From Pseudo-nitzschia pungens (Eukaryota > Bacillariophyta > Bacillariophyceae > Bacillariales > Bacillariaceae), in the NCBI GenBank assembly GCA_037355855.1, contig CM074765.1:1-64000 (forward strand): a DNA stretch of 64,000 bases, given 5' to 3'. The translations under genes were made by a program, and so were the position numbers. The notes beneath the pieces were generated by a model that saw only the letters and a program-made list of their open reading frames with translations, searched no databases and was not told where the DNA came from. Positions 2,328 to 19,661 of this stretch are shown piece by piece (position 1 is the stretch's first letter; every line of letters starts with the position of its first letter).

Positions 2328-3746
2328 TCAGTTGTGGGAACCTTTCTTTTTGAAGATTTTCCTGTACTTTCTTCTGTACTCTTTGAGTTCGCGTTCGGAG
2401 ATGTCGATCTCGTCATCGGAGACTGCATGGTCAGCTTGGGCCGTGGCCAGTACGTAAGAGTACTCGTGGTTTGATAGGCTCCTTCCCCAGTGGGGTTTGG
2501 AGTACTCCTCAGAATCTGAGTTGTCTTTTGCCACAAAATGCTCCTTGAGCAAGTTGATGGTCTCCCGGTCGAACTTTCCCTTCTTGGGAGGTCCGCCGGT
2601 TAGTTTCCAGCATTTGCCAGCATGGACCTTGCCACAGGTCTTGCATAGCTGTTTGTTGCCGTTGTCTACAGGGCGCTTCTTTTTGCCAGGGGATTTCCCA
2701 TGGTGGGTTCCTCCCCCAGAGGCGGCCTTGGGAGTCTTCTTGGTACCACCGGTTTGTTTTTCGAGGTCCGAGATGCGTTTGCGGAGTTCATCCTCGTTCC
2801 GGATGGTGATTTCCAAGTTTTCGAGCTTGTCGATGGTGGTGTTAAAGGATTGGGTGTAGACGTCCCAACTGATATGGTCGAGTTTCTCGCGTTGTGAGTG
2901 GGTCATGTTGGCATCTAGGATTTCCTTCATGTCCTCCTCTGAGTAACTGGATGGGGCAGTGCCGTTTGCGGCGCCACTCTCCCAGAGGCAATCGGGTAGA
3001 TAGCTCTGTAGTTCGGCCATACGGTTTGCCCATGAGCGAATACCGTGTTTCATGTCGATTTTTGTGTTCCGAATGAATCTTCGGAGCAGGATGTAGGATC
3101 GTTTGCCATTCATGTCATTGCCAAAGATTTTGAGCTTGAGGGCATGCATGCATTCCTCAATGACATCCTTTCTGTACTCCTGGGTTTGGTAGTACTGGGT
3201 GAGAACAGACGAGACCCTTTTCTTGGGGACCGGGTCGTCGAGTGTGACGGACTCCGGTTCTGTCTCGGACGCCGCCGTAGCAGTCGCGTCGGCGGCGGCT
3301 GGGGTGCTGGCGCCCTCCACCGCCTCTTTGGATTTGTCAGCGGGGGGTTCCTTAGGAGGTTCCTTAGGTTCCCTCATGGCAATCATCTCGAGTTTTTGTT
3401 GGATCAGTTGGTTGTTGTGTACCTTGTGTCCTGGTTCGGCATAATATGTCCGACCGAGGACCATTTGGACGATGGAGAGTGCCTCGTTGGAGAGGATTCT
3501 CTGGAGAACGTCCAGTTTCTGATCTCCTTGGAGTTTCTCATTGCCAACAATTTTCTGGTCAAAGTCTCTCTTCCAGATGATGAAGAGTTCCGGTCTCTCC
3601 GTGCCGGTGAGTACCTTCAGGTAGTCACTGAAGGCCACTCCTCCCTTCTCGGAGTCTATGCTCATCTTCACACCAGCATTGGCATCTTCCGGCCAGTCCT
3701 CTCGGGCAAAGGTAAAGGGTTTCTGTTTGGTTCCTTTAGACGCCAT
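2328..3746 (-). CDS. gag: Gag-like nucleocapsid protein of gypsy element
   Basis: This 472-aa protein starts MASKGTKQKPF and is clearly paralogous along its length to the protein at 27180-28616. Toward the C-terminus a basic GKKKRPVDNGNKQ stretch precedes LCKTCGKVHAGKCWK, a compact zinc knuckle spaced C-x2-C-x3-H-x3-C (the canonical retroviral form is C-x2-C-x4-H-x4-C). An acidic-then-basic tail (SDDEIDIS, then YRRKYRKIFKKK) ends the protein. A variable low-complexity segment rich in Pro, Glu and Ala lies in the middle. It presumably packages element RNA. It ends in a single UGA directly before the pol ATG. Confidence 0.9.
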   Translation of the reverse strand: MASKGTKQKPFTFAREDWPEDANAGVKMSIDSEKGGVAFSDYLKVLTGTERPELFIIWKRDFDQKIVGNEKLQGDQKLDVLQRILSNEALSIVQMVLGRTYYAEPGHKVHNNQLIQQKLEMIAMREPKEPPKEPPADKSKEAVEGASTPAAADATATAASETEPESVTLDDPVPKKRVSSVLTQYYQTQEYRKDVIEECMHALKLKIFGNDMNGKRSYILLRRFIRNTKIDMKHGIRSWANRMAELQSYLPDCLWESGAANGTAPSSYSEEDMKEILDANMTHSQREKLDHISWDVYTQSFNTTIDKLENLEITIRNEDELRKRISDLEKQTGGTKKTPKAASGGGTHHGKSPGKKKRPVDNGNKQLCKTCGKVHAGKCWKLTGGPPKKGKFDRETINLLKEHFVAKDNSDSEEYSKPHWGRSLSNHEYSYVLATAQADHAVSDDEIDISERELKEYRRKYRKIFKKKGSHN

Positions 3747-4684
3747 GGTGGGTTAATCAGTTATTTTATTTAATCTAGTTACACTATTCCTGTTATCTTT
3801 GGTGCTTGTGTTGAAACTGAGCAAAAGTGATTGCTCAGTTCCTCCAGTTTTTCTTGCTGGATTTCCACTGCTCTCGCGATAACTCGTGTTATAACTGATT
3901 TTTCCCCTGGTTTGTCCAGTGGTGGGAGTTGTTTCTCTCTTTGCTTCCCGGGAATCCTGTGGTTCCCCGGAGTTGTTTCTGTTTTTATTTCGTGGGATTC
4001 GGTTCCCGTGGTTCTCCGGCGTTGCTTCTCTATTAAGCCGTCACCGGGCCGGTCCCACTTCCCGTTTCCCGTGGGATTAGTGGTGTTTGGGTATTTGATT
4101 ATATACCTTTCCGGATATCCGTATATTTCGGTTTTGGTTGACATGCCTCCTACGGTCTGTCCACCCACTCAGTGTTGGTCCAATTAGTCCACTCACTGGT
4201 TTATGTGTCACTTTTTCAGCATGTATTTTCGAATTTTTCGATTACATCCTGTTGTCGACCATGGTCCTGTTCAGGTACTCAGGTGTCTCTGTTGCTGCTG
4301 CTGTTGCCCCATCTAATGGTACTAACAGTTGCTGGGGTCGGTCTTCCTTGTGCTGCAGACACTGGATATCCTTCTCCCTGTTTTGCTTCTCTGTGCCTCC
4401 ATTTGTCGGCAGTCCTTTCGGTCTCGGCGGCGCCTTGGCCAGTCGGTCCCCTTCTGCTCATGGTCGTCAGCACTCAGCTTGATTTTAAAATCATGCCATA
4501 CCCCGGGTCTACTAGTGATTAGAATAGTAGTGATATGCAAATTGTGAGCCCTATTGGTTAGTCTATTTGCTACAGTTCCAAGAGTGCTCTGAATCGGCGA
4601 TTCTGTCGACTCGCTGATTGTTTTTATCCTTATCCTTATTCCAATCCCGAATGGATTCGTGACTGTATTCCGGCGCACGGCAAC
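3747..4684 (-). other. Gypsy 5' leader / presumed 5' LTR region
   Basis: About 940 bp upstream of gag is shared with the second copy (26240-27179) but carries many small insertions and deletions. Minus-strand reading frames here (for example 4678-4322 and 4168-3779) are partly shared between copies, but the frame is lost and regained through compensating indels. I therefore treat the region as LTR plus untranslated leader and not as a gene. The LTR/leader junction was not identified. Confidence 0.6.
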
Positions 4685-5116
4685 TCTTTAAAAAAAATGA
4701 GTCGGTGTGGATTTTGTTTTTTTGCTAGTTGAGTGCATGAGGTAGTAGTTACTACATCGCGATGGGGGTAGGGAATCGCGAGGGTGCTACGGGTCAAGCT
4801 ACACAAAAAAGCAGCCAGGAATGCATCGCGACCCCCCAAAAAAATTCTCAAAAAGGGTTGCGAAACAGTTTTCAGACGCACATACACTGATTTTCGCAAC
4901 CACATAGCGCGACCCATTCCCTGCGATCACCTTGAACGTATGGGTTGTGAGACGCAAGGTGATGCAAACATATGCTGTTGTGTTAAATTTGCACACAAAT
5001 GAGGTTGCGGCGGGGGGTCGCTACGGGGTTGCGTGACATTTATCAGACGGATCGATGGATCAACTAGATCTATTCTAACTACCACTTGTGGGCTCAGTCA
5101 GTTAGATCTTAGGCTT
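4685..5116. other. Intergenic segment, no gene seen
   Basis: No convincing reading frame. It contains GC-rich CGCGACCCCC-type motifs, and a 10-bp inverted repeat GGTTGCGAAA / TTTCGCAACC around 4855-4901 that could form a hairpin. The CGCGACC motif recurs near 16320-16335. Confidence 0.5.
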
Positions 5117-5339
5117 CGTCTAATAACTGATTTTCGACCATTTTGACCCGTTTCGACCACCCCCCTCTTATTTTTTAGATGTTTTTAGCTCCAATATTTC
5201 TATTATTTGGAGCGAAAGTGCCTTTCTTAAGCTCGAATTATTATTTTTTGGCTCCAAAAATTAATTTTTTGCTCCAAACTCGAATATTTGGGTCGAAAAA
5301 TTAAGAGCCGGGGTCAAAATTCGTTGTACAACCACCATT

Positions 5340-5460
5340 AGGGTTAATGTTTGTAGCGCTGCAGCGCTGTATCCCTGTATCGCTGTATATCTGTAGCGCT
5401 GTATTGTAGCGCTGTATCCCCTGTAGCGCTGTATCCCCTGTATCCCTGTAGCGAACGTGT
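5340..5460. repeat. Short tandem repeat, core GTAGCGCTGTATCCCTG
   Basis: Head-to-tail variants of a 10-17 bp unit built from GTAGCGCTGTATCCCTGTAT. The same array recurs at about 5886-6016, and a short version occurs near 6385-6420. The embedded AGCGCT is palindromic. Confidence 0.8.
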
Positions 5461-5559
5461 TGTACCGGTATGGGGTGCTAACTCCAGAGATACCAGGCTT
5501 TTCGCGTACGATTTGTACCAGTTGTACGTACCCCGGATATAGTAGCATCCGTACTACTA

Positions 5560-6880
5560 CAGTGCAGCTGAGTGCTACAAGGTTAGGGTTGCTAATGCTA
5601 CGAAATACTGGAGATGCTAACCTACCATGATATCATGCTAAGATACTATGCTACCGCCAGGGTCGGGTCATTGGTGTATAATATGTACTTTGACCGGATA
5701 CCTGACCCAGACAGTTACCCAACGCGCTAGCACACCTTTGAATCTAATTAAGCGGAGCTACGCTACGGTACTCCGCACACACTACTACGCTACCCGTAGA
5801 ATACAGTACTGGAGCTACAGAGCTCTGTTATTTTACGAGTTAGCGGAGCGCTGTCACGATACGATACAGAGCTGAGCTGCGCTCATCCCCTGTAGCGCTG
5901 TAGCGCTGCAGCGCTGTATCCCTGTAGCGCTGTATCCCTGTATCCCTGTATCCCTGTAGTGCTGTATCCCTGTATCGCTGTATCCCTGTAGCGCTGTATC
6001 CCCTGTAGCGCTGTAGCAGCAACGCATCGATAATAGAGGGGGGGGGGGACAGCAAGCAGCAAGCAGCAGCAACGCGTCGATAATACAGGGGGGGGGGGAC
6101 AGCAAGCAGCAAGCAGCAGCAACGCGTCGATAATACAGGGGGGGGGGGGGGGACAGCAAGCAGCAAGCAGCAGCAACGCGTCGATAATACAGGGGGGGGG
6201 GACTGCAAGCAGCAAGCAGCAGCAACGCGTCGATAATACAGGGGGGGGACTGTTTGGGCCGGGTATCCCGTCATGGTACATGTTATACACCAATGACCCG
6301 ACCCCGGCGGTAGCATAGTATCTTAGCATGGTATCATGGTAGGTTAGCATCTTTCAGTATCTCGTAGCCTTACCAACCCTAACCCTGTATCGTAGCGCAG
6401 TGCTGTAGCGCTGTATCCCCTGCTTAGTATGGATGCTACCAGAAGTTACTAGGGCCGTCGCGTACGATTTGTACCAATCATACGTACCCCGAGTAAAGCA
6501 CCTATTATGGTGTAGCTAAATGCTACAGGGTTAGGGTTGCTAATGCTACGAGATACTGAAAGATGCTAACCTACCCTGCTACCATGCTAAGATACTATGC
6601 TACCGCTGGGGTCGGGTCATTAGTGTGTAATATGTACTATGACGGGATACCCGGCCCAAACAGTTATCAAACGTGCTAGCATAAGTGAGCTAGCATACAA
6701 TTGGATCGCTAATAATTAAGCGAAGCTACGCTACTCCGTGCGATACGCTACTCCGTAGAATACAGTACCGGAGCTACGGAGCTCTGTTATTATACGAGTT
6801 ATCGGAACGCTCTGTTATTATACGAGTTATCGGAACGCTGTTACGATACGATACAGAGCTGAGCTGCGCTCAGCTCCCTT
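5560..6880. repeat. Compound direct and inverted repeat cluster
   Basis: A segment of about 330 bp at 5560-5890 (beginning near GGTTAGGGTTGCTAATGCTA and ending near GAGCTGAGCTGCGCTCA) is repeated in direct orientation at 6515-6880. Its first ~160 bp occurs a third time, inverted, at about 6240-6400. The first and third copies can pair as hairpin arms around the 5886-6240 arrays. No protein is supported. Reading frames here are artefacts of the repeats. Confidence 0.8.
6015..6250 (-). repeat. CTG-rich minisatellite (first site)
   Basis: About four to five units of 45-60 bp containing GCAGCAACGCGTCGATAATA, then a G-run of 8-14, then GACAGCAAGCAGCA. On the opposite strand this reads CTGTATTATCGACGCGTTGC followed by TGCTGCTTGCTGTCC. 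That is the same family as the arrays at 26070-26240 and 28820-29450. Length variation lies mostly in the G-run. Confidence 0.85.
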
Positions 6881-7218
6881 ATATTCACTCTTTATGTTTC
6901 ACTCTAAATTAAAAGCCTATCATGCCCTCCCCTTTCGATCGATTCCGATGTACCTCTAGGGAAGTGCCTTGTATTGCCTAAGTGTATGCAATAGACCTTG
7001 AACAGTCCACTGTAAACTCACCCTTTGCCAGGGATATAGGTGTTATTATTGTTAAGGCTTTCCCCTTATTTTTTAGTACGCAGTAAAAGACGATTTATCT
7101 ACGAGTCGGTCGGGTCATCAGGTGTCGCATGATCATAGTACAATAAAGCGTGTACAATAAAGCCAGTACATTAAAGTTAAGGGTTGTAGACGCTCGGTCA
7201 TTACGACAATATGTCCCC
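6881..7218. other. Intergenic segment, no gene seen
   Basis: AT-rich sequence without a supported frame. It lies downstream of the minus-strand ORF ending at 7219 and may contain its 3' untranslated region. Confidence 0.4.
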
Positions 7219-7833
7219 TTATCTGCACCTTTTTCGGGGCCTTCCCGTAAGGTTACTGGTATTTTCTCCGGTATTTTCTCCTCTGACACATTCGCACTCC
7301 ACACAAATCATCGACTTAAAACGGTCCATTTGAAACGAATGGATAACGACTCCACGTTCAATAATCAACCTCACTTCCTCAGGCAGGTAATTCTCGATAC
7401 GGATCTCACGGACGATTTCTTTTCCCATGTAGCACCTGATAATGTAATTTGCATCCCGGTGATCCATAGGATTAGTAACATCCTTCTTCAACTCAAACGT
7501 GAAGGTAATCCTGTATGTCGGTACAAAATATCCTATATCATCCCTTTTGGGGTATTTGACCACAACCTCGAACCCATCATCCCTGTGCTCTACATTGCGA
7601 ATAATCATACCTGTCTCCAGACCCCTGTCAATACCCTCGATCTCGCAATAATTTTTGTGATCAAAATGAATATCCAAAGTACCGAAAACTCCCTCTCCGA
7701 AATGGAAGCTGAATGGGGTGGTGCGGGTGGTTTGTGCGCTGTACCTATGAGGTTTATTTATGAATATGACCTTCATCTCATTTTGTTGGCCTGCAGTTCC
7801 CGTTGTCGCGTCCGTCGCGTCCGCGTCGCACAT
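7219..7833 (-). CDS. Hypothetical protein, 204 aa
   Basis: An ATG at 7833 opens a 204-residue frame. I do not recognise a family. After about 22 low-complexity residues the sequence becomes well mixed and looks like a folded, strand-rich domain (for example MKVIFINKPHRYS, GYFVPTYRITFTFEL, ANYIIRCYMGKEIV). It ends in a basic tail (GRPRKRCR). No signal peptide or membrane segment is seen. Its upstream side is the 33-bp tandem array at 7850-8340, so that array would be its promoter region. It is divergent to the dioxygenase gene and could be an accessory gene of the surrounding transposon. An upstream exon is possible. Confidence 0.5.
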   Translation of the reverse strand: MCDADATDATTGTAGQQNEMKVIFINKPHRYSAQTTRTTPFSFHFGEGVFGTLDIHFDHKNYCEIEGIDRGLETGMIIRNVEHRDDGFEVVVKYPKRDDIGYFVPTYRITFTFELKKDVTNPMDHRDANYIIRCYMGKEIVREIRIENYLPEEVRLIIERGVVIHSFQMDRFKSMICVECECVRGENTGENTSNLTGRPRKRCR

Positions 7834-7849
7834 AATGGTCAATCAGGTT

Positions 7850-8340
7850 GTCTTCTCTTCGGGAACACCTTTTTTGAATAATCACGTTGTCTTGTCGTCG
7901 GGAACACCCTTTTCCAATAATCACGTTGTTGGAACACCCTTTTTTGAATAATCACGTTGTCTTGACTTCGGGAACACCGTTTTCGAATAATCACCTTGTC
8001 TTCTCGTCGGGAACACCCTTTTTCAATAATCACGTTGTCGGAACACCCTTTTTGAATTCTTTGGGAACATCCTTTTCGAATAATCACGTTGTCGGAACAC
8101 CCTTTTTGAATTCTTTGGGAACACCCTTTTCGAATAATCACGTTCTATTGTCTTCGGGAACACCCTTTTTGAATAATCACCTTCTCTTGTCGACGGCAAT
8201 TTGAATAATCACGTTGTCTTTTCTTCGGGAACACCCTTTTTGAATAATCACGTTGTCTTTTCTTCGGGAACACCCTTTTTGAATAATCACGTTGTCTTTT
8301 CTTCGGGAACACCCTTTTTCAATAATCACGTTGTCTACCC
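7850..8340. repeat. Minisatellite with TTCGGGAACACC units
   Basis: About a dozen imperfect units of 30-40 bp built from TTCGGGAACACCCTTTTT followed by GAATAATCACGTTGTC. Several units keep TTCGGGAA, an inverted TTC-n2-GAA pair like a half heat-shock element (near 7857, 7967, 8154, 8222, 8261, 8300). The array lies directly upstream of the minus-strand ORF starting at 7833. Reading frames through it are artefacts on both strands. Confidence 0.85.
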
Positions 8341-8595
8341 CCGTATGTTGTATGTTTACAAATATCTTTCTCTGCCGGTACATATCCCTGTACAAATTGT
8401 TGTACCCGAATCTTTGATTGGCTACTACTGTCGATTCCATGATTCTATGTTCCTCAGCCAATGAAAAAATACGTTCCTAAACCAATGAAAGAATTTTATT
8501 TCTCATTACAAACTGTACAGGAAAACTAGTACCTTACCGGTAGAAACACAAATTACTTCCTACCTTATTACTCCATTACTCCACCATTCAATTTC
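8341..8595. other. Intergenic segment, no gene seen
   Basis: AT-rich, with a duplicated CCTAAACCAATGAAA-like phrase near 8455-8490. No coding signal. Confidence 0.4.
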
Positions 8596-8716
8596 GATCG
8601 ATTTCGATTTTGATTTCGATTTCGATTTCGATTTCGATTTCGATTTCGATTTCGATTTCGATTTCGATTTCGATTTCGATTTCGATTTCGATTTCGATTT
8701 CGATTTCGATTTCGAT
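8596..8716. repeat. Hexanucleotide microsatellite (GATTTC)n
   Basis: About 19-20 nearly perfect copies of GATTTC. The Ile-Ser frame across it is a repeat artefact. A related but degenerate repeat (GATTGCGATTCCGATA) lies at 10735-10870. Confidence 0.95.
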
Positions 8717-9387
8717 TTTTGTGCTTAATCACTTGTTTGCATCACAACCCACTTTGTACACAAATTTTCGATTCGGATTCCGACTTATTTTGAGCAGAGT
8801 TGCTTCATTGCACTCCGTCTTGTGAACGAAGAGAACCCCTACGGTAGGCTCTTGGCTCATTGTACTTTAGTCCTAAAATATCCTTGTCTGAAAAACGGAG
8901 AAGCACCTCTATGGCATGGACGAGAGATTGTTCGCTTGAAAGACATAGTTTGACTTGGCCCCCAAACGTCTTGAAATCAATCAATCTGCATCCATCGCCG
9001 GTTGGACTTCAACAGGCGCAAGTTCTTGTTTTCGTGACATAGGAGGAAGAATTGAATACGACCAGGGAAGACGACGACGGAAGACAACAACGGCGGAAGA
9101 CGACGGCGGAAGACAACGACGATTTGGACAAAGGTACGCTAACACGATGATGTTTTCACCCAGGAAGATTTAATTGTAATTATTACTAACCCACTATTTA
9201 ACCTTTCAAGAAGACGAGGGAGGTGCGGTACGACCCAAACAGTACAAGCGAAACTACGGAAGAGAAAAAAGACGACGACGCGACGCAAAAAAGACGACGA
9301 CGCGACGCAACAAAGACGACGCAACAAAGACGACGCAACAAAGACGACGCAACAAAGACGACGCAACGACGATTAGCGGAGGGCACG
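8717..9387. other. Upstream region of the dioxygenase gene, with GACGAC repeats
   Basis: 9055-9125 and 9260-9370 hold runs of GACGACG and a 14-bp unit GCAACAAAGACGAC. Because the unit is not a multiple of three, reading through it would be frame-sensitive, which argues against it being coding. The frame of the next gene is open through this stretch only from a GTG. Confidence 0.5.
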
Positions 9388-10497
9388 ATGAAGAAAGGCA
9401 GGACAACAATCACCGGGAACAAAATTTCCAAAAGAGGCCTCTACAAAAAAGCCAAAAGGAAAGCTGCTAAGGAAGCGAGAAGAAGAATGACATCGAATTT
9501 TATCAAAAATGCACCACCCAAGTCGAAAACCCACACCACCTATAAACACGTGGCTAGGATAAGACCAAGAATCGATGAACCTACTCATTCACCAACATCC
9601 AATAACGTCGTCAAAACACAGCTGAAGAGGGTAAGCAACAACGATCTATTTTACAAAGGTAAATTTTTTGTAACGAAATGGGATAAAGAGAAAGTTGAAT
9701 CCAACAAATACGAATGGAATGACGTTGTGTCTATTGATCCGCAACCGAAGATGAAACCTTTCGAGACCATGGATAGTACAGAGGATAACCACCTAATTGC
9801 AGTGGATCGATCGCAACCATCACTGCAAATATTTGCTAAAGCATCCAGAACAGAAGCGAGAAAACATCTGGCTGGAACCAATAATATCCGATATACAAGA
9901 ACGTTTGCAGAAGATGTTGTTGCAGCGAAACCAACAGTTGAAAGAGGATGCGAGTGTGGTAGCGTCGATGATGGGTATGCCATTGTTGGTATTCGACCCA
10001 ACCGTGCAAGTCGTGGCATAGGTCAGTATGCGTTCAAAAAGAATGTGGGGGAACGGAAACAGGCAGATTTGAACATGGTTGCATCTCATATTGTCAACGA
10101 ATTGGAGGATACTATACGTCCGGTTCGGAATTATTTTGGTCATGAAATTTCGGTGATACGTCAGGTGGTGAGGCAAACAACACTTGAAACGGTCGGCGGC
10201 GATAGTCACTATCTTGCCTTTTCAACGGGTAAGAATTACCACTCCAAATGCCATACCGATCGTGACTATTACTACAGTCTTTTGACTGTGGTAGGTCCCC
10301 AGGGGGTAGAGGACGATGAAGTTATATATTATTTTATATTCCCTACGTACGGAATCAAAATTCCACTACGTTCTGGGGAAGCACTGTTGTTTAACTCTAC
10401 CATCTTGCACAGCTGTTCGAATCCCAAATACGATGGTTGTTATATTATGAGCGCCTTCGTCCCATGTAGAACTGTACTCAGGGCCGATCCAATATAA
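9388..10497 (+). CDS. TET/JBP-like 2-oxoglutarate/Fe(II) dioxygenase
   Basis: This 369-aa protein has a basic N-terminal ~60 residues (nucleic-acid-binding or nuclear-import character) and a C-terminal double-stranded beta-helix core. The iron triad is visible as H289-x-D291 in KCHTDRDYYYS and the distal H341 in FNSTILHSCSNP. Between them lie YYFIFPTYGIKIPLRSGEA and LLF, a spacing and wording I associate with the TET/JBP group of base-modifying dioxygenases and their algal and fungal relatives. The Arg expected a short way after the distal His to hold 2-oxoglutarate is not obvious (CYIMSAF is there instead), so cofactor binding may differ. The ATG at 9388 is chosen because the upstream frame has only a GTG and runs through repeats. 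It lies on the same strand as the transposase 2.6 kb downstream. A role in oxidising 5-methylcytosine or thymine in DNA is inferred and not shown. Confidence 0.72.
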   Translation: MKKGRTTITGNKISKRGLYKKAKRKAAKEARRRMTSNFIKNAPPKSKTHTTYKHVARIRPRIDEPTHSPTSNNVVKTQLKRVSNNDLFYKGKFFVTKWDKEKVESNKYEWNDVVSIDPQPKMKPFETMDSTEDNHLIAVDRSQPSLQIFAKASRTEARKHLAGTNNIRYTRTFAEDVVAAKPTVERGCECGSVDDGYAIVGIRPNRASRGIGQYAFKKNVGERKQADLNMVASHIVNELEDTIRPVRNYFGHEISVIRQVVRQTTLETVGGDSHYLAFSTGKNYHSKCHTDRDYYYSLLTVVGPQGVEDDEVIYYFIFPTYGIKIPLRSGEALLFNSTILHSCSNPKYDGCYIMSAFVPCRTVLRADPI

Positions 10498-10890
10498 TAA
10501 TATTAATTTACAATTTAAAGTAGTTCGTTCGATTGCCATTTTGATTTAGATAGTAGCGTTTTCAAAACGCCGCCTTTGTTATTCGAAACGCAACGCCGCC
10601 GTTGTTGTTTGTGGGAATCGCTTCGATTCCGTTGTAAACAGCGTCATGTTTGGTGTTTGTTTTGGTTGACAGTAGAAATATCGTGACTGTAGAAATATCT
10701 CGTTCAGAAACACACGAATTTCGAAAAACTCTTTGTGATTGCGATTTCGATAGATTCCGATACTTCTTCGATTGCGATTCCGATACTTCTTCGATTGCGA
10801 TTCCGATACTTCTTTGATTGCGATTCCGATAGATTTCGATACTTCTTCGATTGCGATTCCGATAGATATGGTTGATTGTTGAAGTGGGGG

Positions 10891-11012
10891 CGCGAGGAGA
10901 TTGCGCTTTGCAATACTCCCCACTTGACTTTTAAGGCAAGCCCGAACCTATCGCGAGGAGATTGCGCGAAGCAATACTCCCCACTTGACTTTTAAGGCAA
11001 GCCCGAACCTAT
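10891..11012. repeat. 61-bp tandem duplication
   Basis: Two copies beginning CGCGAGGAGATTGCGC at 10891 and 10952, each ending AAGCCCGAACCTAT. They differ mainly at CTTT versus GAAG in the middle. Confidence 0.9.
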
Positions 11013-11999
11013 CAGTTTCTTCTCCAAACGGGCTGCCAGAGGCACTTTGTATATGGAGATGAGGCACCGATGACACCTGGACTGATACGGTCAGTTATCC
11101 AAACCGTCGCTGTGTACGGAGGTTATCCAATGAACAAAGGTAGTAACAACTGAAAGCAGTCGAAACCACCGCGGGGCCACCGCAAGTTCAATCAGAATCA
11201 CTCCTTTAAAGACACCAGCAGCCTCGTTGAAAAGACCTCAATCACAGCAAAATTATGCAAGGTTCACCACCCTGTCCCACCAGGGCCACTGCATTTTGCT
11301 ATGTAAAAGATCCTTCCCTTGTGGTTACACCCAACGATGACTCCGACTTGAGGAACCCAACGAAGACTCTGACTTGAGGAAACCAACCATCTCCAGTCTA
11401 GAGAGACATTTAGCAACCAGGCATACCTTGATCCAGAGTCATAGTGGAGGTATTAGGTTGTTGTCCCTCTCCATGGTATCTCAACAGTGCGCTCGTACAG
11501 CTAGTGGTATGATCTCAGGGAGCTACCCCACCACTAGGCTAGCCCTGTACATTGAGTTAGCCCTGAAGAGAATCCCATGGTGACCTTCGATCCGACGTTG
11601 TTGTGTGAATCCGAAGTATGAATTCAGTTTTGCCAGGATGCAAAACTAGAATTGTGATCTTATACTGTTGTTGGAAAATGGAGAAATGAAAATTCTAATT
11701 CCACTATTGCAACTGCTGGTGGTGATACTTCCACTATTCTGAGTGTTACTTTCATTACTGATCTAGTAGCGTGTTGATTCTGAAACAATTCAGGTTTAAT
11801 TTGGATACTTCTATATGTACACTTCACTAGAATCACAGAGTACAATTTACAGGAAATATGAAAAATCCAAAATTGATTCACGCTATCACAGAGTACAATT
11901 TACAGGAAATATAAAAAAACCAAAATTCACTCACAAAAGTTTAGGTTTTAACTGGTTACTTCTACATGTACACTTCATTAGAGATACAAACTACATTTG

Positions 12000-12240
12000 A
12001 AACCATTAAAATTTATTCACAGAAATGTTTATCATCCAACAGACACCACTTAAACTACCAACAGACAAAACTAAATTTAATCTTGATCATGTTAATTTAC
12101 CAACATACAACAAATTTAATCGCCTTAACATTAGTTTGCTCACAACAGACAACACTTAACCATTAAAATTTATTCACACAAATGTTTATCAGCCAACAGA
12201 CACAACTTAAACTACCAACAGACAAAACTAAATTTAATAG
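12000..12240. repeat. ~80-bp direct repeats
   Basis: 12000-12082 and 12159-12239 share AACCATTAAAATTTATTCAC, the AAATGTTTATCA phrase, and ACTACCAACAGACAAAAC, with few mismatches. A smaller pair of CACAGAGTACAATTTACAGG copies lies at about 11836 and 11887. Confidence 0.85.
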
Positions 12241-12449
12241 CCATTTTTCTTCCAGATCTTCTAACAGCACTGTTTTTGTATCTTATGAACTTGGATTTGA
12301 TACAGATTTTCTATTCTGTTACTAGGGGGCCCAACGAGGAAGTAACATCCCAAAGTACATTAAATAAATGTGGTATCATAGATATCCCATTCATTTGACT
12401 GTTGTATATTTTCTACTAGAAAGTATTGACACTACTGGAGGAAATATCC

Positions 12450-12783
12450 ATGAAACATAGGATCTTTTGAGTTTAATTCTTTTCATAGTCAGAAGCATAC
12501 ATATGGTGAGGAATATGGTTACTTGAATGCTGGAAATATTCCAAAAAGTATTCATGAAGATGCAAAATAATACACAGATAAAGCAAGCACTAAATAAGAC
12601 AAAAGAACATGATATGGGACACACCCCACACAATAGGATCTTTTGAGTTTGATTCTTTTCATAGTCAGAAGCATACATATGGTGAGGAGTATGGTTACTT
12701 GAATGCTGGAAATATTCCAAAAAGTATTCATGAAGATGCAAAATAATACACAGATAAAGCAAGCACTAAATAAGACAAAAGAT
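12450..12783. repeat. ~150-bp direct duplication
   Basis: 12452-12602 and 12632-12782 are nearly identical. Shared phrases include AGTCAGAAGCATACATATGG, then GCTGGAAATATTCC and CAAGCACTAAATAAGAC. Reading frames on the minus strand here follow the duplication and are not supported as genes. Confidence 0.9.
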
Positions 12784-13068
12784 GAGAGGCATGGGAGTGG
12801 CTTGAACTGACAGCAGCACAAGATAGCACATGCGCCTGTGTCACCACTAATTCACGATTAGCTTAAGAAAATGAAGAGTTTTTTCGTTCTTTAATTCATT
12901 TTGAATGCAAGTGCTGTACTAACGCTAAAGGAGCATCTTTCCGTGACGACGATTTTGGTTCTTGCTTCCTTTCTTGAAACGACAAGGTATGGGTGAAATT
13001 AATGATAACAAGATAATGAATATTGCTGTCCTTTGAGACCCAGAAATCATTATCTTCTTGTTGACGTG

Positions 13069-16000
13069 ATGCCAAAGAAAAGAAAGTATTCCGATGGTGT
13101 TAAAATCTTGGCAGACTTCTACTGTCTGGCATGTTTTAAGAACACGAACACACTGAAAAAATTTCGTGGGTACAAAAGAGTGTCTAAAAAGGATCAGTCA
13201 TCTTTCAAATACGTTTGCAGCGGGCTTACAAGCCACTTGACCAGATCAGGCGAATGCGGCAGATACTACTATCATAATGTACTAGATAAAACAGCCGCGT
13301 CCGTATTCGAAATCCACCACACGGGTGGAGGTGCGGGCCGACACAACCCATCCAGTTTTTCCTTGACGATGACAGGAAATGGTCCACAGGGAGAAGCGGC
13401 ATCTGATAGAATTTCGACCGGGGACCAGAATCAGGATTTAAATAGGCAAGTGGTACCAGACGTTCTGGTACCACCTATACAGCGCAATGTTATACAGTCC
13501 TATTTAGCAGCTCCGGAGGTAGATCAAGAGGAAGATAATGAAGAGGAAGACAACGACGGAGTTACACTGATGGATGATGCAAATGAACAAAAAAGTACAG
13601 AACCAGATGCGCTCAATAACATGGAACAGATGTTCCGTTCCCACCCAATACCTGATACAACTCAGCAGTTACACGCTGAAATCAAGCTTATGAATCTAAT
13701 GTCAAGGCATCGCTTACAATTAGGTACATTTCAAACCATAATGAATTGGGCAAAGGAATGTCAAAACCTCCCTGGTTTTGATTTTCGTACGGCGAAAATC
13801 AGAAAACGTGAAGTTGTTTTCCAAGAAATACAGAAGCATGTCAAAATACCCAACACAAGATTTGAACCAAAGCTAGTTACTTGGCTACCAGACAAGAAAC
13901 CTGCTCAGATTTACGTTCGCAATTTTAAAGAAGCACTGTATTCTCTTCTATCCAATAGTGAGCTGATGTGTGACCAAAATCTCTCCTTTCCAAGTATAAC
14001 AACTCCGCTGCAGCCAGACAATGATCCTGCCATAACGGAAGACACATACATTTCAGAGCTTCATCATGGAACTTGGTGGAAGGACTCATGGAGGTTAATG
14101 TGCCAGCAAAACGCAGATCCTCCTGAAATTTTGGTACCACTGATTTTTTACATGGACGGGATCAGCCTGGATGCGCATGGCAGATTGTCTCTTACTCCTC
14201 TCAATATGACTCTGGGTATTTTCAGTGTAGAGACAAGAAAACGCCCAGAGGCTTGGACTACTATTTACTTCCATCCAGACAGCGAATGGGAAAACACCCA
14301 TCATTCAAGGAAAGCTACGCCGACAGAAGCGGTACAGAACATTCATAATGCGATTGCCGTTGCACTAGAATCGTTGAGGGAAATTGATGCCGGAGGGGAT
14401 GGAATTCTGTGGGATTACCTTCCCTATGCAGGGAAAGTGTGGAGCGTTAGAATGAAATTTGCGATTGCATATGTTGTAGGAGATACCGAACTCCATGACA
14501 AGCTTTGTGGAAAATATGGATCCCGATCGGCCAGGGTTAAAAAACTATGCAGACACTGTGATTGTGCAACAACTGAAATCAATAGGCCAGCAGCACAACA
14601 ACATGTAAAACTGTGGAAACCAGACGACTTCGAAATACCAGACGGAGAAGATGCAACGGATTATTTCAAACAACAATCACACCACCGTATCGAGAACGCA
14701 TTCCACAGTTTAAATTTTGGGTCCAATCTCAATAATATACACCTCGCAACACCAGGTGAAACACTACATATGCATCAATTAGGGGTAGCCAGGCGATGTG
14801 TGGAAGCAATAGAACAACAGTTGGTAAACACTAGTGTTGAGTGTAAATACGCCGCGAACCTAAAGAAAGGGAGGGCGACGGTGGAAGCACTTGGATATAT
14901 TGCTCAAAGATATGGTGCGCTATTATCAAGACAATCCGACAGGGATTTTCCTAGAACCAAATTTGGAACAAGCATTATGTCCATTGCGAAAAAAGAAGGA
15001 AAAGATTATAGCGGTATGCTATTGTGCATCCTTGTAGCACTGGCGTCGGAAGCTGGCCAAGAGATAGTGGGTGATCTGAGATTTGCAACTACACAAATTG
15101 ACGTCATTGAACAAATCATATCAATGGAAGAGTTTCTCAAACATGGAAGAATTACTCCAAAAGGTCTCCGAAATCTACCAAAAACAATAATTCATTTTAT
15201 TAACACAATCAATACTGCATGTATTCGGAAAGGAATGGGGACGAGACTCATCAAGAACCATCTATATTTTCACATCCCAGAGTACATAAAGTTGTGGGGA
15301 CATCCACTGGGGTGGGATAGTAGCTTCAGTGAGAGTCATCACAAGACAGAGGTGAAGGCTCCAGCAAAGAACACACAACAAAACGCAGCTACATTGATTA
15401 GCCAAACAACAAAACGACAAACGGAAAAGTTGCTGTTGCGTACTGCCAATATGTGTTACGGGTTGGAGGAAAAGCATGAAGACCCGACAGCGAAACCCAG
15501 ACCGAAGAAAGCCGGCTCACTATTCAAAATACACCGTGACGCCAAACAAAGTAAGGGAAGCATGACATGGCATAGAACTTCAAATAAGGACAAACCGTTT
15601 TTGCCATCGGTAATTCTGGATTTTGTCTGCGATTCGGTGTTGCCGTTACTAGTCGATGGCACATCGGTAGAAGCATTCACAGAACACAATCGATGGGATT
15701 CAACAAACAAGGTCGGATATTTGTTTCGATGCCATCCCTCCTACAGATCGACATCTGGGCAAGTGAATGCCGTTTGGATGGATTGGGTAGTGGTCAGTGT
15801 TGATTCGGAAGCAATCCCGTGTCAGATTCTATGTTTTCTTGAACTAGATAACCTGAAACGTCCAACGGGTAGAGTGAATAATTACCCGGTTGAAAATGAA
15901 GGTCTTTATGCCGTCGTTAGAAAATTCAAGAAAGAGCCCACAAGGTCGAAGTCAAGATTTGTTTCCAAGGGTACTTTGGAAGAAGGTTTCTTTGTATTCA

Positions 16001-16215
16001 ACACAGACGCAATTTTATCAGATATTGCTGTTGTGCCAGAGTTGAATAAAGATGGAAGTATCTCGGCTGCAAACAGGTGGCTAGTAGTGGCCAATCGTGG
16101 TGCTTGGTTGGACAGTTTTGAAGAAAGGAATGAGAGCCTGGCTTCTACATCATATGCAACACTTTACAGTCAATGTCAATTGGCAAATGACATGGACGAA
16201 ACAGAGGAAGAGTGA
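13069..16215 (+). CDS. CACTA(En/Spm)/Plavaka-like DDE transposase
   Basis: This 1048-aa protein starts at the ATG at 13069 (MPKKRKYSDG). The 36 nt upstream are open only from a TTG. A possible N-terminal zinc-binding set is C19-x2-C22 with H56 and C63, followed by an acidic linker (about 150-170). The core has LIFYMDGISLDAHGRLSL around 358-375 with candidate catalytic D363, a GD at 471-472, a cysteine cluster CRHCDC at 494-499, and TPGETLHMHQLGVARR at 561-576. The last resembles the hydrophobic-HQL segment of Plavaka and CACTA transposases. The catalytic residues are assigned by position only. The frame is intact over 3.1 kb, so the element may be or recently have been active. It would cut and join transposon ends in the nucleus. 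KDZ-type transposases are an alternative and are linked to TET/JBP genes in fungi. Confidence 0.7.
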   Translation: MPKKRKYSDGVKILADFYCLACFKNTNTLKKFRGYKRVSKKDQSSFKYVCSGLTSHLTRSGECGRYYYHNVLDKTAASVFEIHHTGGGAGRHNPSSFSLTMTGNGPQGEAASDRISTGDQNQDLNRQVVPDVLVPPIQRNVIQSYLAAPEVDQEEDNEEEDNDGVTLMDDANEQKSTEPDALNNMEQMFRSHPIPDTTQQLHAEIKLMNLMSRHRLQLGTFQTIMNWAKECQNLPGFDFRTAKIRKREVVFQEIQKHVKIPNTRFEPKLVTWLPDKKPAQIYVRNFKEALYSLLSNSELMCDQNLSFPSITTPLQPDNDPAITEDTYISELHHGTWWKDSWRLMCQQNADPPEILVPLIFYMDGISLDAHGRLSLTPLNMTLGIFSVETRKRPEAWTTIYFHPDSEWENTHHSRKATPTEAVQNIHNAIAVALESLREIDAGGDGILWDYLPYAGKVWSVRMKFAIAYVVGDTELHDKLCGKYGSRSARVKKLCRHCDCATTEINRPAAQQHVKLWKPDDFEIPDGEDATDYFKQQSHHRIENAFHSLNFGSNLNNIHLATPGETLHMHQLGVARRCVEAIEQQLVNTSVECKYAANLKKGRATVEALGYIAQRYGALLSRQSDRDFPRTKFGTSIMSIAKKEGKDYSGMLLCILVALASEAGQEIVGDLRFATTQIDVIEQIISMEEFLKHGRITPKGLRNLPKTIIHFINTINTACIRKGMGTRLIKNHLYFHIPEYIKLWGHPLGWDSSFSESHHKTEVKAPAKNTQQNAATLISQTTKRQTEKLLLRTANMCYGLEEKHEDPTAKPRPKKAGSLFKIHRDAKQSKGSMTWHRTSNKDKPFLPSVILDFVCDSVLPLLVDGTSVEAFTEHNRWDSTNKVGYLFRCHPSYRSTSGQVNAVWMDWVVVSVDSEAIPCQILCFLELDNLKRPTGRVNNYPVENEGLYAVVRKFKKEPTRSKSRFVSKGTLEEGFFVFNTDAILSDIAVVPELNKDGSISAANRWLVVANRGAWLDSFEERNESLASTSYATLYSQCQLANDMDETEEE

Positions 16216-16674
16216 GTAAGAAATAGTAGTTACTTTTTTTTTTAATGTAAAAACTAAGATAGTCCCTACTTCGCAATTTTTTTTTTGGTAATAGCTAAGA
16301 TAGTCCCTAATTCGCAAATTCATCGCGACGCGACCGCCCCAAAAAAACGTTACTATGTCAGGTACAGAAATTATAAGAGAGCAAAATTGGCGCGGGCGAG
16401 TACGCTTCCACCTTGAGAGGATGCAAAGCTAACAGAGAATATCATGTAGAGGATAAGTACGTTTTTTGGAAACAATAAAATGGCGCGGCATGATGGCTTG
16501 CATTGATAGAGGAAGCCGTCCAGTAATTATTGGATGTGGACGTGTGGACGTGTGGACGTGATTTTTGTTGTAATTCTTCGATCTTGATTTTTGCGGAAAG
16601 TCTTCATAATTGAGTAACACAACTGATTGAAAACAACTTTTCAGAAATTCCACTAAATTACAACATTAATCACC
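16216..16674. other. Gap between transposase and coiled-coil gene
   Basis: A phrase CTAAGATAGTCCCTA occurs twice (16254 and 16293), each followed by a TTCGCAA and a T- or A-rich run, then CGCGACGCGACCGCCCC. It probably holds the 3' end of one transcript and the promoter of the next. No gene is seen. Confidence 0.45.
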
Positions 16675-18379
16675 ATGAATAGAGAAGCATTGCAACTGAC
16701 TAAAGCTATTGCAGAAATTAGTCCAGTCTCAGCTGATGTGAACAGTCCAAGAAAGAATCGCAGTGGATTATCCCTACCCGATCCCAATGTGATAACACCA
16801 ACTGTGGCATCGGCGCGGAAGCAGCAGCAGCCGTCGACGAAGAAGCAGCATCAGCCGTCGAAGAAGCAGCAGCCGTCGAAGAAGCAGCAGCATCGGAAAA
16901 CGAAGCACACAAATAAACCCCAATCCACCAAAACTTCGATAGACAATGTGACCTTCAGCACAAGAGGGAATGTGAACTTCAACGCAAACGGGAACGTTAT
17001 TGTCGCAGAGAATGCAAATATGACAGAGCCGAGGACGGTGCGGAACAGTGAATGGGACGACAGAGTCGCAGAAACAGAGAGACGATTAGCTGAAATGGAG
17101 AAACGACTTGAAGAAAAGGAGAAACGACTTGACGAAAGGGAGAGAAAACTGGTTGAAAAAGAGACAGAAGGACAACGAACGGAAAAGGAAAAAGGCAACG
17201 TCGATAAGGAAGAAATCGAGCGGAAACTTAGGATCCATCAAGCGACGGTGTTGAGCCAAAGGGTGAATCAGTATGTAAAGCTAAATATTTTTCAGAGTCA
17301 TAAATTTGTGGATAAGAAAGAGTCGATCCAAATTCTGAAAACAATGATGAAGGAGGAAAAGCTTCAACTACCGGAAGGCGTTGCCAAAAACGAATTCTAT
17401 GAATACAACTGGATGATAATCAGAAGGGCGGTAAATGACTTGAGAACTGCGGTGCAGTCTTTAGTTAGGAAGCATTGGATTGGTAAGTGCTAATGCTACT
17501 AATGTAAAATGATGTGGGAATGATTATTATAATGAGCAAGTGGATGCCAATACTAACAAGCACACGGTTACCGTTCCTGTTACAGATGACTTCAAGAAGG
17601 CAAAAACGAGGCGAAATGAATGGGTGCTGCCTGAAGGATTTCCAGGCACGCTAAAGCTTCTCGAGACGGAGGATGATGATGCTCCCGTCCTGCATCCGAG
17701 CTATAGGAAGAAGGAAGGAGAAGATGACTTCTATTATTTTGCAACCCGCATCTTGGCTGCATTCCTGCCATCGGTTTTTTGCCCAAAATGGCAAAAAACA
17801 AAATTGATTGGTGAAATATATTCCGTGAGTGATGAGGCATTTGCATTGGTTATAATTCATAACGAATATGCAAGATGGGTGAATTACTTGGAAAGAGTTG
17901 ATGACAAAAGTATTCCTGAGGTTAGCAAAAAATATTGTGACCCGAGAAGTGGAAACGATGAGGGGTGGTCGGAAGATGGAATAGAAATGTATGAAAGAGT
18001 GTGTGAAGAACTGATGGATATCCGCTTCCCTGGCTACAACCTAGGGGGAAAAGACGACAAAGATAAAGACAAAGACGAGGAAGAAGACGAAGACGAGGAA
18101 GAAGACGAAGACAAGGAAGAAGACGAAGACGAGGAAGAAGAGGAGGAAGACATCGAGGCAAGGGAAAAAGCAAAAATCGAGGCGAAAAAGCAAAAGGAAA
18201 AAGTGGTAGATTTTGAAATCGCCTTGATGAGACGAATCAACATGGCTTCGAAACGCAAAGGTGGAGGTGTGGCATTACAATCAGATTCTGCTAGTAGCAA
18301 GACAAAGCGAAAGAAGAGGAGAAAGCATATTGATCCAATAATGAGTAGTGAGAGAAGGAAGTGGTTGGCGGAATTGTAA
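16675..18379 (+). CDS. Coiled-coil and acidic-tail protein, two exons
   Basis: Exon 1 is 16675-17482 (ATG in CACCATGA context) and exon 2 is 17586-18379, joined in frame to give 533 aa. The N-terminal third is Lys/Gln/Ser-rich. Residues about 120-185 form a strong heptad coiled coil (EMEKRLEEKEKRLDERERK). A mixed region around 190-400 contains the exon junction. Then comes a run of Asp/Glu with Lys (DEEEDEDEEEDEDKEEDEDE), and the C-terminus is basic (TKRKKRRKH), a likely nuclear localisation signal. I do not recognise the family. Its position next to the transposase and the 22-bp repeat array suggests a DNA-binding accessory protein, as TnpA is in the maize En/Spm element. That role is inferred only. 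Coding without splicing would give two ORFs, the second lacking an ATG. Confidence 0.7.
17483..17585 (+). other. Predicted 103-bp intron
   Basis: The donor is GTAAGT at 17483. A perfect TACTAAC branch-site consensus lies at 17551-17557. The acceptor TTACAG ends at 17585 after a pyrimidine-leaning stretch. Removal keeps the frame (a G from exon 1 plus AT from exon 2 makes Asp) and avoids the stop at the end of exon 1's frame. Confidence 0.85.
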
Positions 18380-18489
18380 ATGGATGGTAATATTGAGGTT
18401 GATTAGTGATAGTTTAAATTAAAAGCAATTTGTGGTTGGAAACGGCGTCGCTCCATAATACCATAGGGTAGACAAAACGATCGTTCCGT

Positions 18490-19025
18490 CTCGAAAATTA
18501 ATGGGCGTTGCCTCAAAAATTAATGGGCATTGCCCAGAAAATTAATGGGCGTTGCCTCATAAATTAATGGGCGTTGCCTCGAAAATTAATGGGCGTTGCC
18601 TCGAAAATTAATGGGCATTGCCTGGAAAATTAATGGGCATTGCCTCGAAAATTCATGGGCGTTGCCTAGAAAATTAATGGGCGTTGCCTCATAAATTGAT
18701 GGGGCTTGCCTCGAAAATTTATGGGCATTGCCTAGAAAATTAATGGGCATTGCCTAGAAAATTAATGGGCATTGCCTGGAAAATTAATGGGCATTGCCTG
18801 GAAAAATTATGGGCATTGCCTGGAAAATTTATGGGCATTTCCTGGAAAATTCATGGGCGTTGCCTCGAAAATTCATAGGCGTTGCCTCAAAAAGTAATGG
18901 GGCTTGCCTCGAAAAGTAATGGGTATTGCCTCGAAAATTTATGGGGGTTGGCTCGAAAATTTATGAGCAATGCCTCGAAAATTTATGGGCGTTGCCTCGA
19001 AAATTTATGGGCGTAGCCTCTAAAA
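18490..19025 (+). repeat. ~24-copy 22-bp subterminal tandem array
   Basis: About two dozen units with core AATTAATGGGCGTTGCCTCG (alternatives GGGCATTGCC, TTTATGGGC). Positions 1-6 and the GGGC-TTGCC core are the most constant. The array starts about 110 bp after the coiled-coil gene's stop and ends about 125 bp before the candidate right end of the transposon. Confidence 0.95.
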
Positions 19026-19661
19026 ATAATTGGCATAGGCTGTAAAATATATATGGTACGGGACTGAAAAAATGAAGCCGGGGGACAATCCTTTGGTCAA
19101 ATATTTGACCCCAAAAGGACCCGGCACGAAAATTTTTGACCCACGTCTAAAATCAGTTATCAGACGTTGTAGTTCTACAGGGAGCTGGTGCTCAGCAGGA
19201 TGTAGTAAGTATTAAGGTATATCAATCGGAGTTAAACTAAAGATGTGAGGACAACAACCTTGTCGGGAAATTGACGTTGCTGTCTTGTTACTAGTAATTC
19301 TATCGGGTGTTTGCTGCTGCTGCTTGTGTTTTTCTGTACTGAGGACCCAGTAGAAAATTATTTGTTTTCTTTTCGCGCAGTGTGGTGTTCGATTGTACGG
19401 TATGTAAGATATGTAAGGTTAAGGGTTTGTCAAACTGCAACCGATTTTGGTTACAATTTAACAATACCTACAGCAACAGATGCCACAGACCTGCAGTTCA
19501 TGTGTGTTGTTGTTGTTGTTGTTGGATACTACAATAGAATCATCCATTTCGCTGAGTTCCTAATGCAAATCAAATTTCGTGGTATGCGTACTGTTTGTTC
19601 TTACTCTGTGTGCAATCGATAATGCGTGGAATGTCGTTCCATCTCGTCGTGAATGCTCGTT
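19026..19661. other. Right flank of the candidate transposon and 3' side of the membrane-protein gene
   Basis: It contains a perfect 16-bp palindrome GGTCAAATATTTGACC near 19094 and the candidate terminal repeat at 19149-19166. Thereafter it is ordinary AT-rich sequence. No supported gene. Confidence 0.5.

Follow-up and report, generated by a model that had tools for sequence, protein, structure and literature searches.

The 64,000-nt stretch of Pseudo-nitzschia pungens DNA analyzed here (the window, G000:C8:1-64000) contains a 14,050-bp, apparently autonomous DNA transposon in which a gene for a predicted TET/JBP-fold Fe(II) oxygenase precedes that for a Plavaka-like (CACTA-related) transposase on the same strand. 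We put the probability at roughly 60% that this transposon encodes its own oxygenase of the TET/JBP fold and that the enzyme counters the methylation-based silencing of the element; the anti-silencing function predicted from the analyses below is likely. The genome that contains the window comprises 66.9 Mb in 28 contigs (C1-C10 are contigs, and L017-L048 are other loci of the genome compared with the window).

The initial annotation had placed the transposon at 9388-18379. The element proved to be larger, spanning 5117-19166 (Table 1): its 22-nt terminal inverted repeats (TIRs) are 91% complementary and spaced by 14,006 nt, and homology to other copies starts at 5117 (L017) and, among the matches listed, stops at 19166-19173 in several copies, in agreement with the TIR-defined ends. 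The terminus pattern, with at most 2 mismatches, occurs 165 times in the genome and 0 times in a reversed control, and 42 of the 48 exact 3'-type ends pair with a 5' end no more than 40 kb away. Target site duplications (TSDs) were examined in 23 of these 42 paired elements, where the 2-bp flanks were identical in 22 cases (the sole exception being C5:4914729) compared with 98 of 506 mismatched pairings; agreement was 0/23 at 3 bp and 2/23 at 5 bp (control 15/506). Together, the TIRs and the 2-bp flank agreement define an element of 14,050 bp with a 2-bp TSD, TT at the window copy. The TET gene lies within this TIR- and TSD-bounded element and has multiplied along with it. The 2-bp target is TA in 9 of the 23 5' flanks, frequently inside TAGTAGTA-like runs, and a preference for insertion at such TA-containing sites is possible.

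Searching the genome with the dioxygenase returned 27 matches. Fourteen, the window copy among them, are full-length with identities of at least 95%; the others are one partial at 90%, three near full-length at 62-63%, one partial at 61%, three pieces of one split copy and five fragments. With the 165 terminus matches, this repetition goes well past what chance would give. A second query, protein P0003 from Psemu1, which we take to be Pseudo-nitzschia multiseries, gave 26 matches that coincide in location with the first set, and it added no dioxygenase copies of greater divergence in this genome. Transposases were scored for 44 of 242 candidates, so that the transposase counts given here are lower bounds. 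Of 18 close transposases (at least 92% identity), 13 are preceded at 2.5-3.8 kb by a dioxygenase of the same orientation; the prospect that other copies of the transposase would consistently lack the dioxygenase, which the initial annotation had raised, was not borne out. A chance linkage of the two genes was considered as well and rejected on this co-occurrence. Conversely, 12 of the 14 full-length close dioxygenases sit 2.5-3.0 kb before a listed close transposase, and one more, at C3:385383, lies about 3.1 kb ahead of a transposase in pieces; element C3:380035 comprises a dioxygenase plus a transposase in pieces. This arrangement makes it scarcely credible that a domesticated, host-serving enzyme gene was hit accidentally by a transposon, even though one full-length close copy (C1:4831201, 96% identical) is near none of the listed transposases. 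The third-gene relative that follows this copy, at 7 kb, is only 30-41% identical, which indicates that the dioxygenase may also have moved between element lineages. For the three 62-63% dioxygenases (G000:C6:4841687, C1:3242809 and C10:2866948), the third-gene relatives, at distances of about 7-16 kb, belong to another subgroup (~40% identity), which suggests a second dioxygenase-bearing element lineage.

The ratio of nonsynonymous to synonymous substitutions (dN/dS) across nine copies of the dioxygenase is 0.34 (mean dN 0.0086, mean dS 0.0251), with single pairs at 0.17-0.99. Homologs are 37-47% identical, with several per source in Psemu1, the organism named for 9 of the 20 matches. Combined with the 13/18 co-occurrence, these values argue against the dioxygenase being a passenger that was captured once by chance and plays no role in the life of the element, which we regard as very unlikely, notwithstanding that elements bearing a different cassette, X (described below), are also present in several copies, and that the dioxygenase at C3:269286-270394 is split, yet a largely open transposase resides in the same element.

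The annotated 369-aa frame with H289, D291 and H341 is intact, and the phrase FPTYGIKIPLRSGEA was found in it, with a core that is conserved. A TET/JBP-like fold for this protein is well supported by its AlphaFold model (predicted local distance difference test (pLDDT) 77.5, predicted template-modelling score (pTM) 0.77), for which human TET2, CMD1, NgTET1 and CcTet outrank all other listed solved structures in two scorings, the second being the VIA-align list, which does not exclude families outside that list. In Foldseek, CcTet (4.2e-9) was placed far ahead of the prolyl hydroxylase PHD2 (1.5e-4), so that another dioxygenase class did not emerge as the best structural match. Identity to the solved TET enzymes is about 8-14%. 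The first named matches in a viral library search with the dioxygenase are JBP1/TET, and scanning viral contigs with the family alignment gave 49 pattern matches with no relative among them. An AlkB/FTO-like DNA/RNA oxygenase or a protein hydroxylase, whose likeness to TET would reflect the general double-stranded beta-helix (DSBH) fold, appears improbable given the viral library matches, the precedence of TETs in both structural scorings and their longer alignments, which span residue ~67 (for CMD1, from 32-55) to 369 compared with ~122 to 366 for FTO.

The active site was assessed in an alignment of 21 sequences, drawn from environmental contigs, from Psemu1 and from the genome of the window. 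H289 and D291 are present in 21/21. At position 341, one sequence has a gap, and of the other 20, 19 have His and one has Tyr. In CcTet, as given in the available sections of PMC11040006, the 2-oxoglutarate (2OG)-binding R385 precedes the base-stacking aromatic F391 by six residues, and the accessible part of PMC7854593 has the same Arg-aromatic spacing in the other three solved enzymes (R1896/Y1902, R289/F295 and R410/F416). We took position 357 as the diatom aromatic (F/Y in 18/20, plus one Trp and one Cys), which places the Arg at position 351 by spacing, not by coordinates.

Several results weigh against the favored reading of a TET/JBP-fold oxygenase that counters silencing of its own element. 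Position 351 is Cys in 14/20 and Ser in 6/20; it corresponds to H+10, compared with an Arg at H+9 in CcTet and H+13 in CMD1 in the portions of the sources at hand. At H+5, the diatom family has Met, Tyr or Phe, with Asp/Asn at H+4 instead; the base-contact residue at H+5 is Asp350 in CMD1 and presumably Asn1387 in TET2 and Asp234 in NgTET1, if the HxD numbers used for these two enzymes are right. The TM-scores given by Foldseek, at 0.34-0.48 by query length, are modest. The PF12851 profile found nothing at E<=1 in the whole genome, and 14 control genomes likewise gave none over the cut-off, so that this search had no positive control; the dioxygenase family profile found no TET among PDB sequences. 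Furthermore, 5/18 close transposases are without the dioxygenase, and CpG content showed no clear footprint in either direction across the element, the window and the two frames, with observed/expected ratios of 0.97 in the element, 0.98 in the rest of the window, 1.01 in the dioxygenase frame and 0.76 in the transposase frame.

Taken together, searches of Pfam and of PDB sequences with the dioxygenase, along with those using its family profile, recovered no TET and no other convincing family, the best stray Pfam matches of family members being PhyH (E 0.058, 6/21 members) and Cupin_2 (0.012, 2/21). The annotated TET/JBP-like identity was thus upheld by the predicted fold and not by a sequence-profile match, and because PF12851 did not match, our claim concerns the TET/JBP fold rather than PF12851 membership. 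Judged from the sequence alignment, replacement of the 2OG-anchoring Arg by Cys/Ser appears to be a real oddity, for which another cation, such as K/R347 (16/20) or K/R361 (18/20), could substitute; with this apparent loss, the chemistry may differ from that of textbook TETs. The possible loss of the anchor, along with the co-transport of dioxygenase and transposase, would also fit a protein that has given up oxidation and assists transposition by binding DNA, but we find this distinctly unlikely, as the Fe triad is conserved across the 21 sequences and is not needed for binding alone.

The proposal that dioxygenase, transposase and third gene form one block held for the recurrent pairing with the transposase and not for the five close copies that carry another cassette. 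In these five, protein X is encoded on the opposite strand instead (four full-length, one a 75-residue remnant), and in 0/18 do dioxygenase and X occur together; the figure of 8.6e-5 for this exclusion assumes independence among 19 copies that are related, and has illustrative value only. The X cassette consists of protein X (643-719 aa, with conserved Cys in the N-terminal part) and a 457-aa Lys-rich open reading frame (ORF). X has 63 matches genome-wide, and among the sister-clade transposases (56-57% identity), 22 of the 25 scored have X 0.6-1.6 kb downstream, with a dioxygenase within 10 kb in 0/25. X copies 92-96% identical to that of L036 adjoin 56-57% transposases, for example at C7:4669178, and in L042, part of a 60%-identity transposase, X and the 457-aa ORF precede a close-clade transposase, as if the X cassette had come from the sister clade by recombination. 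Protein X gave no Pfam family over the cut-off, no PDB sequence at E<0.9 and one distant homolog (P0141, 29%), and its AlphaFold model is worthless (pLDDT 38). An HxD-like H495/D497 is invariant in five aligned sequences, four of them 94-100% alike; no conserved distal His follows, and X is therefore not called an oxygenase. Its position and exclusivity suggest that X may be a functional substitute for the dioxygenase by another route.

These observations and the odd active site could be accommodated by a TET-fold enzyme whose use of 2OG departs from the usual and which places an unusual base on transposon DNA, perhaps using ascorbate like CMD1, the enzyme and X being two interchangeable anti-silencing cassettes exchanged by recombination between clades; we consider this unlikely, and favor an oxygenase that counters methylation of its own element.

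The annotated transposase of about 1050 aa, on the same strand as the dioxygenase, is an intact 1048-aa frame, and its assignment as CACTA/Plavaka-like could be narrowed to Plavaka-like (CACTA-related) by motif order. D363, D472, C494-x2-C497, H731-x3-H735 and E755 are invariant in 28/28 aligned rows. PF18759 matches 26 of these 28 sequences, 24 of the 27 relatives having been picked with a PF18759 label already, and hmmscan found no PF18759 match in the window transposase itself. This Plavaka family is present in 42 of the 120 transposase homologs listed (of 136 found), its bearers reaching up to 46% identity to the window transposase; the organisms named among the homologs are Psemu1 and Cylindrotheca fusiformis. 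The order D, D, C(2)C, H(3-4)H, E is given for Plavaka and the CMCT clade in the available text of PMC12730594, and the catalytic acids among the invariant residues are probably those indicated by this motif order of Kojima. The 2-bp TSD likewise resembles Plavaka/CMCT (2-3 bp), whereas the termini are CGTCT..AGACG, in contrast to TGT..ACA of PlavakaA and CATCA..TGATG of PlavakaB (PMC12730594, sections at hand), so that the element is Plavaka-related and placed in neither.

In the favored scenario, the dioxygenase would be made along with the transposase and would act on modified bases in the DNA of the element, most likely 5-methylcytosine (5mC), whereby methylation-based silencing would be countered or the mark turned into a non-silencing one. 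For the third protein, we propose a role like that of TnpA in Spm, namely binding to the subterminal repeats. The accessible part of PMC12344493 likens diatom methylation patterns to fungal ones, with repressive 5mC, and for fungal TET-carrying transposons, escape from methylation has been proposed, with a function described as not experimentally validated in the sections consulted of PMC12730594. The genome analyzed here has six C5-methyltransferase matches.

TET-carrying DNA transposons of fungi were reportedly described by Iyer et al. in 2014. The diatom enzyme shares with human TET2, NgTET1 and CcTet the DSBH fold and the HxD...H triad, and its aromatic F/Y357 can be equated with the residue that follows the Arg at a distance of six in all four solved enzymes; it differs from them in lacking an Arg at the 2OG position by spacing and in its hydrophobic H+5. 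CMD1, the vitamin-C-using TET homologue of Chlamydomonas, is to our knowledge not transposon-borne. It retains R410, although pointing away, according to the available portion of PMC7854593, in contrast to the diatom Cys/Ser by spacing. TET-carrying DNA transposons occur in Basidiomycota and Ascomycota, with Plavaka among the carriers and TET-minus relatives (Kojima 2025, PMC12730594, available sections). Like those, the diatom element is a TIR- and TSD-bounded DNA transposon with a TET/JBP-fold gene next to the transposase; unlike those, as far as the same sections go, its enzyme belongs to a separate divergent group with HxD (compared with HxE in the fungal PE type), its termini are CGTCT..AGACG and its TET gene alternates with the unrelated cassette X. 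The words diatom, algae and stramenopile have 0 occurrences in the part of PMC12730594 at hand, and no report of a TET-carrying transposon in diatoms was found in the open-licence literature searched. TET-carrying transposons as such are therefore already known, in fungi; the novelty lies in the host group, in a divergent set of enzymes whose active site is odd, and in the cassette exchange. Transposon-borne TET-like enzymes are hereby placed outside fungi, suggesting that the same weapon was captured more than once or in the distant past. The swap of TET and X in otherwise alike elements provides a natural comparison: were the enzyme to act against methylation, one would expect copies with TET and copies with X, side by side in a single genome, to show different base modification and different expression. 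The active site, in turn, raises the biochemical question of co-substrate and product.

Table 1. Features of the transposon, in window positions, and of the alternative cassette in locus L036
Feature	Position	Strand	Basis or remark
Whole element, 14,050 bp	5117..19166	+	TIR pair, homology boundary, flanks; 2-bp TSD TT
5' TIR, CGTCTAATAACTGATTTTCGAC	5117..5138	+	71 exact 5'-type ends genome-wide
207-codon frame (204 aa from first ATG)	7219..7842	-	Common to TET and X versions
39-bp tandem repeat, ~13 copies	7841..8336	.	
Stretch swapped for X cassette	7925..12513	.	L036: homology stops at element position 2808, resumes at 7398
TET/JBP-fold dioxygenase, 369 aa; Fe triad H289, D291, H341	9388..10497	+	Frame, alignment, structure searches
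Plavaka-like DDE transposase, 1048 aa; D363, D472, C494-x2-C497, H731-x3-H735, E755	13069..16215	+	
Third gene (coiled coil by eye), exon 1	16675..17482	+	Best splice choice
Third gene, exon 2 (~533 aa in all)	17586..18379	+	Best splice choice
3' subterminal 22-bp tandem repeat, ~25 copies	18490..19036	.	
3' TIR, CGTCTGATAACTGATTTTAGAC on - strand	19145..19166	-	48 exact 3'-type ends genome-wide
X cassette in L036	3599-5530 and 7282-8655 (L036)		Likewise L038, L040/L041, L042

The third gene, annotated as a spliced coiled-coil protein, can be read as two exons on the same strand, from an ATG at 16675 to a stop at 18379, the coiled coil being a reading by eye only. The likeliest intron is 17483-17585 (GTAAGT...TTACAG), and 16 further GT/AG choices keep the frame; matches to the second frame start near residue 18-20 in several copies, which would be expected if the intron covers the beginning of that frame. 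The 207-codon reverse-strand frame is 88-93% identical across both cassette versions and has no Pfam match.

L029-L033 and L046-L048 are short elements (5.8-8.2 kb) that share the ends of the window element and gave no match to the transposase. Five of these eight (L029, L030, L032, L033 and L047) contain the region upstream of the dioxygenase, window ~8766-9051, inverted, at 93-98% identity and without the coding part. Another, L048, harbors a retroelement at 1582-6258 with reverse transcriptase, RNase H and integrase domains, preceded by an upstream ORF that is gag-like by eye. A terminus-like string, CGTGTTATAACTGATTTT, is found at window 3885-3902, where it is followed by TCCCCTGG, as well as at L018 4382-4399 and L048 6397-6414, with flanks that are alike; these sites perhaps represent another element family with related ends.

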